A stretch of 12,999 nucleotides of DNA, taken from the NCBI GenBank assembly GCA_003353825.1, contig PIVW01000126.1, forward strand, positions 1 to 12,999, read 5' to 3'. Positions 6,741 to 10,849 of the stretch are shown here, piece after piece. Source of the DNA: Chloroflexota bacterium (lineage in GTDB: Bacteria > Chloroflexota > Anaerolineae > J102). Within the stretch, counting starts at the first letter, position 1. Each line of letters opens with the position of its first letter. The position numbers and the translations under genes were made by a program. The notes beneath the pieces were generated by a model, which was given only the letters and a program-made list of their open reading frames with translations, had not been told where the DNA came from and did no database searches.

Positions 6741-8050
6741 TCAAGCGAGTGAAAGAGCAGGTTGAAAGAGTTCGACATCCTGACAATCATCAAGAATTAA
6801 CAAGGCACGAGCTGGCTGCCGGAAGGCATTTCTCCAAAAGATGAGCCATCGCCCTGAAAGTAATTGAGAACGTAGAAACAGGAAATACTCAGCCATGTCT
6901 CGTTTCCAAAACGTGCCGGCAGATTTGAGTCGTAGATTGATGATGCGGCGAATGGCACTTTCGACACAACCACTGCCACAAGGAATGTAGGCGTTTTTGA
7001 ATGCATGATACTGCATGCGTTTTCATTTTTCTCAAAGTAATCATGCCATTTTTTGAGTGCCTGCTGCTGCTTTCTTCCTGTCAGTAGGCGGTAGATTTCC
7101 TGCTGAAGTCCCTGAATATCGCCATGCCAAAGCAGGTTTGTCCACTTTTCGGCTATTTTTTCCTTCTTTTGAACTCGCTTGGCGACTAAGTCAATGATAT
7201 CCTGTAAATTCTGTTTGGCATGAATGTAGTCCAATACCTGATAAACGAAACATGTTTCAAGCAACCCCATCCGTCTACACAGCGCTTCCAGGTCAGACCA
7301 TATCCAGGGTGCGCCATCGCCGCAGAAAACTAGGCGAGCGGCATCGGCTAACGGCAGAGCAGATAGGTATCGCTCCAACAGGGCAAACATGTCCTGTTGG
7401 TTCCCCATCGTGGCATCATGCAAAGGCGAAAACGACTGAACGGTTTTGCCTTGTTTGTCCAACAGATAAATGGTGAATAGCTTGGGTTCGCGCCACTCAC
7501 CGTTATACCCATGCCTCTTCTGTCCCTTCTTTTTTCGACCCCGTTTGGGACATCTTTCCCGTAAGCGACCACCGTCAACACCAATGACGACCGTGAATCC
7601 ATGCAAATCTTCATGCCCATCAAGCGACACTTGTCCCCGAAAGCGCATGCCCTTCTCTGCTAATTGGCGGCAAAAGCGGCGTATCGTGCTCACATCTATT
7701 TGTATCCCCCGCCCGGCCAACATTTCTTTGGCTATCTCAAACGATGGGCACAACACTGCCATTTTGACGACTTCGCCAACTAAAACGGGACTACCTCGTC
7801 CTATCAATCCCAAAACCTCCAGTCCCAAATGGCCGCCTCGTCCATTTGGCCCTCGTTTCTTCCGACCTCTTTTCGGTTTCGCTTTGACAAAGTATGGTGT
7901 CGGTATGAGCATTGTCCTTCCGGTAGCGGAATAGACCGTAACCGTGCGATATTCTTTGAAACGCATCCCTTTTCGCGCTCCTAAGTGCTTTAGTTTTGCC
8001 AAAAAGTCAGCCGACTTCAGCAATTCCGTCAATTTGATGGCTGTAATCAC
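6741..8050 (-). pseudogene. DDE transposase, ISKra4-like, broken by a frameshift near 7019
   Basis: The first part, read from GTG 8050, has a basic segment KPKRGRKKRGPNGRGGH, a helix-turn-helix-like region near 95-125, and two candidate catalytic aspartates: D159 in VIGVDGG and D245 in VFCGDGAPWIW. After WHDYFEKNEN (about base 7019) the frame loses similarity, and the match continues in the -1 frame as RMQYHAF, then PCGSGCVESAIRRIINLRLK, which holds the expected catalytic Glu of the GSGxVESA motif, and ends at the TGA at 6741. One base has been lost in the run near 7019; adding a base after AAC restores NENRMQYHAF. No classical slippery heptamer is present, so decay is more likely than programmed frameshifting. 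Family assignment is from recalled motif style; ISLre2/UPF0236 is the main alternative. Confidence 0.8.
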
Positions 8051-8231: not shown

Positions 8232-8430
8232 CCTAGTTTTCTTGTTTTGTCACATGTCGCTGTCGCGCAAAAGTTACTATGAGGCGCTATCCCGGGCGAA
8301 AATCATCGGATTACGCCCTCATTTCAAGGGGGGAAAAACCGGCCCATTAGAGAGAGTGCTCTCTCATCCATCCGGTTGCCGTAGTAGATTTCGCGGTATT
8401 GCCATATGTCACTTTTTGCAATTGCACCCG
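8232..8430. other. Non-coding stretch right of the insertion sequence
   Basis: No gene is supported here. The region is expected to contain the right end of the insertion sequence and the breakpoint to the phosphatase remnant. The open frames on both strands have no recognisable protein text. A short perfect palindromic block (GAGAGTGCTCTC near 8351-8362) is the only structure seen. Confidence 0.5.
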
Positions 8431-8514
8431 GTCCACGGCGTACACAACGTTCACTGCAGGTGCATGCCAGAGCTGGTAGATTACCTGCTGCAGACGCTCT
8501 ACTCCAAAGTCCTG
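8431..8514 (-). pseudogene. Eroded 3' fragment of a SpoIIE/PP2C phosphatase gene (copy B)
   Basis: These 84 bases align without gaps to 8810-8893 in the intact phosphatase gene, with about 65 of 84 positions identical by my count, including 25 identical bases in a row covering the codons for LQDFGVERL. The - strand translation reads LQDFGVERLQQVIYQLWHAPAVNVVYAVD against LQDFGVERLLRVISRQRHASAVDVVSALD in the full gene. Similarity ends on both sides: before LLQDF there is no YTDGVTDA metal motif, and after AVD no LAIADF. It is therefore a remnant of a paralogue or a partial duplication. Mismatches fall mainly at third and some first codon positions, so the copy probably diverged while still coding. 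Confidence 0.8.
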
Positions 8515-8731
8515 CAGCAATTCCCGAAGATAGCGGAGTGGTATAATCATGGTCAAGTATTCGTAAAGGCTGACTGCTCTTGTCATCCACCCAATCACAA
8601 GGAAGCATACTCAGGACTATGTGCCTTGATCCCTGCTGACCTGCCAGGTTAGCCATTCGTCGACGGGTTGGTGGTCACGACGAAATGAAGGAGGTGCGGA
8701 TACGAGCGTGAAAACAGCCCTCCGTCTGCAG
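8515..8731. other. Non-coding stretch downstream of the phosphatase gene
   Basis: No supported gene. Overlapping open frames on both strands give no recognisable protein text. The stretch probably holds the 3' untranslated end of the intact phosphatase transcript, but no hairpin followed by a T-run is seen on the - strand. Confidence 0.45.
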
Positions 8732-10006
8732 TTATCGCATACGTTTGGCTACGATTAAGGCCATGTCATCGAACTGTGCGACAGGGCCAACGAAGTCAGC
8801 GATGGCCAGGTCCAGAGCGGACACAACATCCACCGCGGACGCGTGCCGTTGGCGGCTGATTACCCGCAGCAGACGCTCTACTCCAAAGTCCTGTAAGTGG
8901 GCATTTGTCGCATCTGTGACGCCGTCGGTGTAAAGCAAGACAAAATCATTCGGATTCAGATGCACGGTTCGTTGCTCATACGTAGCATCGACCTCCACGC
9001 CCAGCACCATTCCCGTACGCTCCAATTCCTGCAAACCTTGTTGGTCGGTGCCACACAACAGCGGTGGATTGTGACCTGCATTGGCGTAAGTCAGATCACC
9101 AGTCACCGGATCCAGCAGGGCGTAGAAGAGGGTGACAAACATGCCCTTAGTGGCATCGGCACAGATTAAGCGATTGGCGTGAGCCAGGATCTCAGCGGGT
9201 GAGAACATACAATCCATGTTGGTACGTACAATACTACGGGTATTCGCCATGAATAGGGCGGCTGGCATACCTTTATCGCTCACGTCGGCGATCACTAAAC
9301 CCAGTTGTCCCCCATCAACCCGGATGAAGTCATAGTAATCTCCGGCCACTTCACGCGCCGGTTGCCATTGGGCAGCAAACTGCCAACCGGGGATATCTGG
9401 CGTCTTGCCCGGCAGCAAAGCCGCCTGAATATCATAGGCCATCTGCAGCTCTCGTTCTCGCCTGGCATTCTCGATCGCCACCTGGTACAGTCGTGCGTTT
9501 TCGACGGCAATGGCTGCGGTGGCAGCGATGGATGTAAGCAGATCTAGATCCGCCTGAGTGAATCTTCCGTTTCCTTCTTGTTTGTCCACATAAATGATGC
9601 CCGAGACCTCCCCTCTAGCGAGCAAGGGGACGCCCAAGATCGAGAGCGCCCCCAGTTCTGTCGTCAGTTGGGGTACGCCGGATCCGGCTTCCTCCTGCGT
9701 GCAACAACTCGCAATGGGCTGTTTTTCGTGCAGCACCTTGTCCAGCACATGATGCGAGACCTTGGGCAGGGTACCGGGTACGGAGCCGTGCTGCATGCCA
9801 CGCGTCACGCGCATGTCAGGACCTTTGTCGACCCACTGCAACATCACAAGGCCACGCTCTGCGTCCGTAATAGTCATGACCTCATCGATAACCTGATTGA
9901 GTAATTTGTCGAGGTCGAGGCAGCAAGCATTGAAACTTTGAGAGAGACGGTAGAGTAACGCCAGGCGTTCTGCAGAGGAATCTGAGGGCATCATAGCAGG
10001 TTTCAA
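8732..10006 (-). CDS. GAF-domain SpoIIE/PP2C-type serine phosphatase (RsbU-like)
   Basis: 424 residues. A GAF domain spans about 15-172 (LLYRLSQSFNACCLDLDKLL, later LGVPLLARGEVSGIIYVDK and FTQADLDLLTSIAATAAIAVENARLY). A helical linker at 172-200 carries the typical ENARRERELQMAYDIQAALLP. The SpoIIE/PP2C domain fills 200-424 with metal motifs GDYYDF (D223, D226), IADVSDKG (D241), NAGHNPP, YTDGVTDA (D361) and FDDM (D413, D414), so it is probably active. Such cytoplasmic phosphatases dephosphorylate anti-anti-sigma type STAS proteins in response to a signal sensed by GAF; no partner is in the window. The start given is TTG 10006, which overlaps the upstream gene stop as TTGA with AAGGAGG only two bases away; ATG codons 5 and 6 (9994 and 9991) are alternatives. 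Confidence 0.93.
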   Translation of the reverse strand: MKPAMMPSDSSAERLALLYRLSQSFNACCLDLDKLLNQVIDEVMTITDAERGLVMLQWVDKGPDMRVTRGMQHGSVPGTLPKVSHHVLDKVLHEKQPIASCCTQEEAGSGVPQLTTELGALSILGVPLLARGEVSGIIYVDKQEGNGRFTQADLDLLTSIAATAAIAVENARLYQVAIENARRERELQMAYDIQAALLPGKTPDIPGWQFAAQWQPAREVAGDYYDFIRVDGGQLGLVIADVSDKGMPAALFMANTRSIVRTNMDCMFSPAEILAHANRLICADATKGMFVTLFYALLDPVTGDLTYANAGHNPPLLCGTDQQGLQELERTGMVLGVEVDATYEQRTVHLNPNDFVLLYTDGVTDATNAHLQDFGVERLLRVISRQRHASAVDVVSALDLAIADFVGPVAQFDDMALIVAKRMR

Positions 10007-10278: not shown

Positions 10279-10388
10279 ATTCTAGGTTTCATGTCTAACC
10301 TCCACTGTAGTGGGGTGATAGATGGTTCCTTGCTGTGCGATTGTTGTCAAGCGGTCCAAAAATGCTCACGGCATTCCAGCTGCTAACC

Positions 10389-10790
10389 TCAGCCATACCA
10401 AGGTTTCTCATCCGGTTCTACTCGCAAACTACCCATCAATTTGTTGAAACCGCTAAACAAGTCGACTACAGCCATCAGTTCGAGCACTCCCTCATCATCC
10501 AGGCCTAACTTCTGCACCGCAGAAGTATGCACCCAAAGTCAGTAATCACAGGCATTCACTGCCGAGACAGCAACGGCGATGATCTCCTTTGTCAGGCGGT
10601 CAAGTTTGCCTTCCTTTACCATGACTGCCTTCACTTTGTTCCAATTCGCCTCCAGGTAATCTGGTTTGTCAGCCATGGATTTGTAGAGGTTGGGGACGAA
10701 ATCGATCCCCAATTGAGTCATGATGTCATCGTAGATCACTTTGGCTTTGCCCATTGCCTCATCTTCGGGAATCAGCTTGATAGCTGCCAT
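10389..10790 (-). CDS. AhpD/carboxymuconolactone decarboxylase-like protein, probable selenoprotein (C-D-Y-Sec)
   Basis: Start ATG 10790, with GGAG seven bases upstream. The frame has TGA at 10541-10539 (codon 84) exactly where the second Cys of the AhpD-like CxxC is expected: AVSAVNACDY, TGA, LWVHTSAVQKLGL. The same frame continues for 49 more codons with good family text (GLDDEGVLELMAVVDLFSGF, NKLMGSLRVEPDEKPWYG) to a TGA at 10391-10389, total 133 residues including position 84. Twelve bases after the internal TGA a perfect hairpin with a GGT loop is found, as expected for a bacterial SECIS. AhpD-like proteins are small helical thiol oxidoreductases or peroxidases; C81, U84 and the nearby His form the catalytic set. 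A Cys-to-stop nonsense mutation is the alternative; intact downstream coding and the hairpin speak against it. Confidence 0.82.
10508..10526 (-). promoter_or_regulatory. Probable bacterial SECIS hairpin for the AhpD-like gene
   Basis: On the - strand: ACTTCTGC (10526-10519), loop GGT (10518-10516), GCAGAAGT (10515-10508), a perfect 8-base-pair stem. It begins 12 nt after the TGA at 10541-10539, and the first loop G is 20 nt from the TGA. Known bacterial SECIS elements sit immediately downstream of UGA, with a small apical loop having a G in its first two positions; E. coli fdhF also has GGU in its loop. The element lies inside the coding frame, as expected. Confidence 0.75.
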
Positions 10791-10849
10791 GTCACTGCTC
10801 CACTAGAGATTGTGATGAGCGGTAGGAAGAACACCTGGCACGAATGTGC

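Follow-up and report, generated by a model that had tools for sequence, protein, structure and literature searches.

AhpD-like selenoproteins with a CxxU motif were already described in the Sargasso Sea survey (PMC1088965) and also in the GOS survey (PMC2398784); the earlier note on this DNA had likewise mentioned Sec-containing AhpD-like proteins from metagenomic surveys. The AhpD-like and CMD-domain proteins in the accessible text of these surveys share three features with the gene analyzed here: an AhpD-type domain, selenocysteine (Sec) at the second position of CxxC, and a predicted SECIS just downstream. In the same text, which permits comparison by description and not by sequence, the motif is given as CxxU and no tail Sec is given. 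A 2026 catalogue (PMC13188914) contains, in its accessible part, AhpD-like and CMD-like families with one Sec each. The AhpD core protein of Rhodospirillum rubrum (PDB 2ouw) has Cys where the present protein has Sec84, and its alignment ends at residue 128, short of the tail.

The window, meaning the whole stretch of 12,999 nucleotides that was analyzed, contains a minus-strand frame that starts at 10790, runs for 83 codons to a TGA at 10541–10539, and continues for 49 codons to a second TGA at 10391–10389. The first TGA is embedded in NACDY-TGA-LWVH, and the second is followed by GGT TAG. The earlier note had placed an in-frame TGA in the active site of an AhpD-like protein, and the frame, the position, and the coding text of the same family beyond the TGA are confirmed. 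It had also seen a sensible C-terminus at 10391–10389. This part has to be revised, in that the codon is very probably a second Sec codon and the true stop is the TAG at 10385–10383. We are highly confident, from sequence comparison, that the gene encodes a 135-residue AhpD-like redox protein with two selenocysteines (double-Sec decoding). Its features are listed below.

10383–10790, minus strand: whole frame, 135 residues with both TGAs read as Sec, followed by TAG (sequence comparison; Pfam CMD match)
10798–10801, minus strand: GGAG, a possible ribosome binding site, 7 nt 5' of the ATG (sequence reading)
10548–10550, minus strand: Cys81, first Cys of the CxxU active site (nearly invariant in the alignment of relatives)
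10539–10541, minus strand: first TGA, putative Sec84, second position of CxxC (TGA in 31 of 36 close loci, TGC/TGT in 5)
10508–10526, minus strand: SECIS 1, 8-bp stem, GGT loop from 20 nt past the first TGA (covariation, folds)
10389–10391, minus strand: second TGA, putative Sec134, penultimate residue (TGA in 29 of 30 readable loci with TGA at codon 84; Cys in Cys relatives)
10386–10388, minus strand: Gly135 (GGT), final residue (GGN in 27 of 29 loci with the second TGA)
10383–10385, minus strand: TAG, true stop (stop at this codon in 24 of 29 loci: TAG 11, TGA 7, TAA 6)
10359–10377, minus strand: SECIS 2 in the 3'-UTR, 7-pair stem including G-U pairs, loop CGTGA from 18 nt past the second TGA (5 of 7 pairs changed on both sides)

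Gene finders truncate the protein, because both Sec positions use a codon that usually means stop. The earlier note expected callers to stop at residue 83, and two 83-residue forms are indeed in the database, namely P0073 (the window protein itself) and P0076 (a 96%-identical relative).

The assignment to the AhpD-like family, made by the earlier note from the letters alone, is borne out by profile and structure comparisons. PF02627 (CMD) scores 54.4 bits against a cut-off of 23 and is the sole Pfam domain above cut-off in the window protein, and the AhpD core model TIGR00778 scores 50.2 bits against 27.8. The peroxid_rel model TIGR01926 gives 73.8 bits, below its cut-off of 81.8, for the window protein and 82.6 bits for the relative P0040. 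The NCBIfam families of AhpD-type selenoproteins remain below their cut-offs (NF041238, 25.2 against 175 bits; NF041047, 19.6 against 110; NF053654, 16.3 against 310; NF041537, 21.3 against 510). An AlphaFold2 model of the product has the all-helical AhpD fold with a pLDDT of 94.5, and superimposes on PDB 2ouw with a TM-score of 0.90 at 37% identity. The last block of the tail is modeled with low confidence (pLDDT 64). The active site is laid out as E69-(11)-C81-x-Y83-U84-xxx-H88. In the accessible text on PA0269, the proton relay consists of Glu36, Cys48, Tyr50, Cys51, and His55 (PMC3141380), and the spacing of E69, C81, Y83, U84, and H88 is exactly that spacing.

A database search with the window protein gave 2318 matches, and residue counts are taken from the best 120 of these. 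Scanning GTDB genomes left 79 loci; L001–L033 align over at least 116 of 134 residues, and L038–L079 are remote. The 36 close loci are the window, L001–L033, and two loci from further genomes (L106 and L113). Outside this set, L034 and L035 end before residue 84, and L037 is a second copy, half masked, that shares both the genome and the TGT tail of L027. L036:8001–8420, from a Gemmatimonadales bin, is a broken relative whose N-terminal half has in-frame TAGs. The close loci come in part from metagenome-assembled genomes and are not all independent sources, because 18 of 33 (the CP070 records) look like a single project. Relatives are found in 26 of 400 genomes of the phylum of G001 at 1e-20, two of them with the TGA form, in 2 of 396 genomes of its class at 1e-42, and in 8 of 132 genomes of the phylum of G011 at 1e-42. 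The resolution of a tree of 68 proteins is too low to show in which order gains and losses took place. The gene occurs here and there across labeled phyla, but a mobile-element origin finds no support: none of 149 pattern matches in viral contigs is a relative, and neither a DNA search of plasmids nor a protein search of phages matched the gene.

Codon 84 is TGA in 31 of the 36 close loci, TGC or TGT in five (L028–L032), and TGG in none. Among the best 120 of 2318 database matches, residue 84 is Cys in 82, Trp in 33, Gly in one, and Ser in one, and is absent in three, two of which are the 83-residue forms. Relatives with Cys and relatives with TGA at this position, on whose existence the earlier note had made its claim depend, thus both occur, and the search for Cys at position 84 that it proposed succeeds in the proteins as well as in the DNA. 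The codons past the first TGA are under purifying selection. In the 26 of 30 other TGA loci compared, pN/pS against the window has a median of 0.13 and a maximum of 0.21 downstream of the TGA, and a median of 0.26 upstream. The reading of the first TGA as Sec at the second Cys of the AhpD CxxC, as the earlier note proposed, is therefore well supported by comparison: TGA predominates in the close loci, Cys replaces it in the others, and selection continues past it. At both TGA sites of the gene, a conserved in-frame TGA aligns with the Cys of non-Sec relatives, the pattern by which a selenoprotein is recognized.

These data also bear on two other readings of the TGAs. In favor of sequencing errors or mutations in a dying gene, automatic callers stop at residue 83 in the window and in P0076, and the partial relative L036 is visibly broken by in-frame TAGs. 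However, 31 loci from many genomes share the TGA at this codon, with purifying selection beyond it. We reject error or decay, which is contradicted by conservation across genomes and has almost no chance of being correct. A changed genetic code in which TGA means Trp could explain the 33 database proteins with W at position 84. However, every one of the 36 close loci has TGA or a Cys codon there and none has TGG, relatives without the TGA have Cys, and the window genes contain Trp codons and are terminated by TGA in 4 of 10 cases. This reading is likewise rejected, on the lack of TGG in the close loci and the use of TGA as a terminator in the window, and we regard it as extremely improbable. 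Since the DNA of close loci shows TGA or a Cys codon and never TGG, the Trp letters are most likely the product of gene callers that were run with a TGA=Trp code.

The Sec reading calls for a SECIS downstream of each TGA. In the accessible part of the 2026 review, a bacterial SECIS is defined by a stem, a loop of 3–9 nt with G in its first two positions, a distance of 16–37 nt from the UGA, and a minimum free energy of −7.5 or lower (PMC13188914). Both window hairpins agree with this definition in shape, loop, and spacing, and the energy of the upper hairpin agrees for SECIS 1 and not for SECIS 2. The window gave no match to Rfam (E up to 1) and none in a tRNA scan.

SECIS 1 is the 8-bp hairpin ACTTCTGC-GGT-GCAGAAGT at 10526–10508, which begins 12 nt past the first TGA and presents its loop at 20 nt. 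The earlier note had proposed this hairpin as the SECIS; the hairpin is confirmed, its role as a SECIS is supported, and its stem covaries across relatives. In one pair (columns 21/29), 30 distinct sequences have C-G in 21, U-A in nine, and no mismatch. In another pair, U-A is replaced by G-C in one of the 30 distinct sequences. The switch between C-G and U-A alternates residue 93 between Arg (CGG) and Gln (CAG), and the third base of a codon further upstream changes with it. The combinations of the upstream codon and codon 93 in the 31 TGA84 loci are TCT/CAG in nine, TCC/CGG in 21, and GCC/CGG in one; therefore, the protein residue follows the RNA pairing. Two of five covariation measures are not clearly above shuffles: the number of pairs with two-sided changes is reached by 30 of 500 shuffles, and that of further pair types by 500 of 500. 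With the partner strand slid by −2, the covariation score is nearly unchanged (0.122 against 0.125 unslid).

The folding check proposed by the earlier note gives a divided answer. The hairpin does fold, and the 52 nt from the first TGA reach −17.0 kcal/mol, but the energy stands out only modestly from shuffles: 8 of 200 are equal or better for the 52-nt fold, 4 of 200 are as good for a 56-nt fold, and 47 of 200 for a 61-nt fold begun further upstream. Folding energy alone is therefore modest evidence for SECIS 1, and the conservation across loci is the stronger argument. In a strict test on the upper hairpin alone (stem of at least 5 bp, −7.5 kcal/mol or lower), SECIS 1 passes in 21 of 29 loci, including the window, against 6 of 145 control ORFs and two of the five Cys84 loci. 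By eye, the SECIS 1 hairpin is not kept in Cys84 loci, and the two that pass (L028 and L029) do so via another hairpin.

The second TGA has a distinctive context of its own. Of the 31 TGA84 loci, 30 have a readable tail (that of L025 is unreadable); the tail codon is TGA in 29 and TGT in one (L027). The alignment shows a conserved tail, DEKPWYG-Sec-Gly. One competing account is a protein with a single Sec, as the earlier note had it. Here the first TGA is Sec and the second a plain stop, which would make the 3' hairpin a terminator or another 3'-UTR element. TGA is indeed a plain stop in 4 of 10 other window genes. However, the codon past the second TGA is Gly in 27 of 29 loci, and each of the four Gly codons is used (GGT 10, GGC 8, GGA 7, and GGG 2), and a stop follows after this one codon in 24 of 29. 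Gly and stop occur together in 23 of 29 loci, against 1 of 145 control ORFs (TGA-ending, at least 200 aa, from the window and L001–L033). In seven loci, the tail reads UGA-GGN-UGA (L014 and L033, with UGA-GGU-UGA-UAA, and L002, L004, L011, L012, and L017). In these loci, one UGA should be Sec and the next UGA, 3 nt later, a stop, which makes them a natural test of selection by SECIS spacing.

Relatives with Cys at the tail position also speak against a single Sec. Among the best 120 of 722 relatives of the Cys/Cys protein L032, the tail matches W[YHFL]G-C in 117, and one protein each has WDGC and WVGC; P0308 has no tail, and the remaining 119 have the tail Cys. The second TGA therefore sits where many non-Sec relatives keep Cys. 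A W[YHF]G tail is also present in 36 Cys84 relatives of the window protein; nine of them run on as W[YH]G-C-G, and 27 stop right after W[YH]G without a tail Cys, which counts against the double-Sec reading. The proteins that stop (P0003, P0012, P0047, and similar) may be Cys84/Sec134 proteins truncated at the tail UGA; 19 of them are in the tree, mixed among Cys/Cys and Sec/Sec forms. Of 32 database proteins with Trp84 and a W[YHF]G tail, 31 go on as W[YHF]G-W and one (P0029) stops. Taken at the level of sequence, the TGA at 10391–10389 is almost certainly a second Sec codon, and the product would end in KPWYG-Sec-Gly, followed by TAG.

SECIS 2 was located by a script that chose, past the tail codon, the CG[GT] loop site with the most stem pairs. 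Such a hairpin is present in all 31 sequences given (29 TGA tails and the Cys tails of L027 and L028), with the loop starting at 16–22 nt. Behind the second TGA, the loop C-G-T/G lies at 16–21 nt in 29 of 29 loci, at a site selected by that motif; this spacing also counts against a plain stop. Presence in every row is weak evidence, partly by construction, because the place was picked for pairing. Covariation is stronger evidence than mere presence. Over seven pairs, 92.6% of cells are paired, five pairs are changed on both sides, and 19 cells show two-sided changes, a number reached by 0 of 500 shuffles. Sliding the partner strand lowers pairing to 18–52%. Of 27 TGA-tail loci, 10 pass the strict test for SECIS 2 (control ORFs, 6 of 145). 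The window is not among them; its 45-nt fold past the second TGA has an energy of −9.3.

Two of six Cys-tail loci (L027 and L028) retain the hairpin although the TGA is gone, a point in favor of the single-Sec account; in the other four (L029–L032), no hairpin like SECIS 2 is seen by eye. As for a terminator, four of the 31 hairpins have four or five T in the next 8 nt. However, 27 of 31 have at most three, and SECIS 2 is therefore not an obvious terminator. Weighing the codon context, the tail Cys, and the hairpin together, we consider a single Sec quite unlikely, and we keep the reading with two.

The position of SECIS 2 is unusual, because bacterial SECIS elements are located within coding regions according to the accessible part of the 2026 review (PMC13188914), and at least 24 of the 29 TGA-tail loci have a stop codon ahead of SECIS 2. 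Any bacterial C-terminal Sec would need a similar placement.

Genomes with the TGA form generally carry the machinery for Sec. SelA is above cut-off in 27 of 28 (the exception is G006), against 1 of 14 control genomes. SelB is above cut-off in 24 of 26 searched, against 2 of 14; the exceptions are G016 and G001, the latter with only a SelB-like start ahead of an N run. A tRNA-Sec of at least 64 bits is found in 26 of 28, and ARAGORN finds a tRNA-SeC in G001 too. In G004, a tRNA-Sec match of 51.9 bits adjoins the SelB match. The chromosome G014, with two Sec/Sec copies (L014 and L017), has SelA and SelB and no tRNA-Sec above the Rfam cut-off of 47. Weak tRNA-Sec matches mean little, because 5 of 14 control genomes exceed this cut-off. 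The Cys/Cys form occurs in five genomes. At these thresholds, SelA, SelB, and tRNA-Sec are all missing from G029 and G031 and all present in G028 and G030; G027 has SelA and tRNA-Sec and, at the edge of a contig, a fragment of SelB. Comparison thus supports the two Sec positions, the two hairpins, the family, and the Sec machinery of relatives.

The surroundings of the gene offer hints to its role. Within ~5 kb, an ECF sigma factor is encoded in 11 of 35 loci (e.g., L001:8462–9112). A zf-HC2 zinc-finger protein resembling an anti-sigma factor is near the gene in seven of 35 (e.g., L011:5873–6133), and an unnamed CxxC protein in 12 of 35 (e.g., L018:7457–7996), often directly adjoining. The unnamed protein has ~173–180 aa when whole, with PC-x-x-CPA and GCEAA-like motifs; two copies gave no NCBIfam match, and one copy gave in Pfam only a LytB match below cut-off. 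Such neighbors would suit a role in redox stress. None of the three was seen in the window, which covers 2.2 kb upstream. The window gene has a GAF-SpoIIE phosphatase as neighbor (8732–10006), with a 94%-identical copy (P0122), and a small protein upstream also occurs in L001 (an Anaerolineales bin). Among the listed relatives of the phosphatase, the four that carry an organism name are all Anaerolineae, and the window probably belongs to this class of Chloroflexota. By eye, a minus-strand ORF at 8347–8598 resembles the C-terminal end of this phosphatase and is perhaps a decayed partial duplicate, and transposase-like ORFs, apparently in pieces, lie at 6741–8050 on the minus strand. Elsewhere, members of one protein cluster are near the gene in five of 35 loci (L010, L019, L020, L028, and L031). 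The longest member of this cluster resembles, as read by eye, an arsenite methyltransferase ArsM. ArsM/AhpD fusions are known as selenoproteins (NCBIfam NF041537).

Together, these features suggest how the protein could be made and used. UGA 1 would be decoded as Sec84 in the active site and UGA 2 as Sec134 in the tail DEKPWYG-Sec-Gly, each by SelB and tRNA-Sec through its own hairpin with the loop ~20 nt downstream, the second hairpin lying past the stop codon. Sec84 would attack a peroxide or disulfide, and Cys81 would resolve the product. The tail Sec-Gly could act as a mobile second redox center that exchanges electrons with the CxxU pair. The product may have a peroxidase or adaptor activity. 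The shuttling tail, proposed by analogy with thioredoxin reductase, is a possibility that we entertain without favoring it; the tail may instead bind a metal or dock to a partner. Slightly more speculative is the broader proposal of a so far unrecognized group of double selenoenzymes across several bacterial phyla, in which the active-site Sec of an AhpD protein is served by a C-terminal Gly-Sec-Gly arm and the second Sec is decoded from a SECIS wholly past the stop.

The database forms encountered for these proteins end at residue 83 (P0073 and P0076), show Trp as residue 84, or may be truncated at the tail. The active site and the tail motif are therefore lost from the annotation in bacteria labeled as several phyla. 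With one SECIS in frame and one in the 3'-UTR, the gene tests how far SelB acts past a stop codon. Its UGA-dependent tail Sec would offer a small soluble model for C-terminal Sec redox relays.

CxxU AhpD-like selenoproteins are already known, and it is the double-Sec form that appears to be new as far as we found: a literature search whose reach ended at figures, supplements, and closed papers turned up no publication in which an AhpD protein that stands alone carries a Sec at its C-terminus. NCBIfam double and triple selenoproteins, such as the ArsM/AhpD fusion NF041537, also have more than one Sec but differ in architecture. The GUXX-star, UXX-star, and KCU-star families have, judging by their names, a Sec near the C-terminus, also in a different architecture. 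Thioredoxin reductase of the mammalian type ends in Gly-Cys-Sec-Gly and has FAD and NADPH domains. Like the window protein, it has its penultimate Sec in a short tail with a possible function for a redox active site. In contrast, the tail of the window protein is Gly-Sec-Gly without an adjacent Cys, and its fold is the all-helical AhpD fold without FAD or NADPH domains. If our reading is true, the Gly-Sec-Gly arm would be a bacterial parallel of the mammalian thioredoxin reductase tail.
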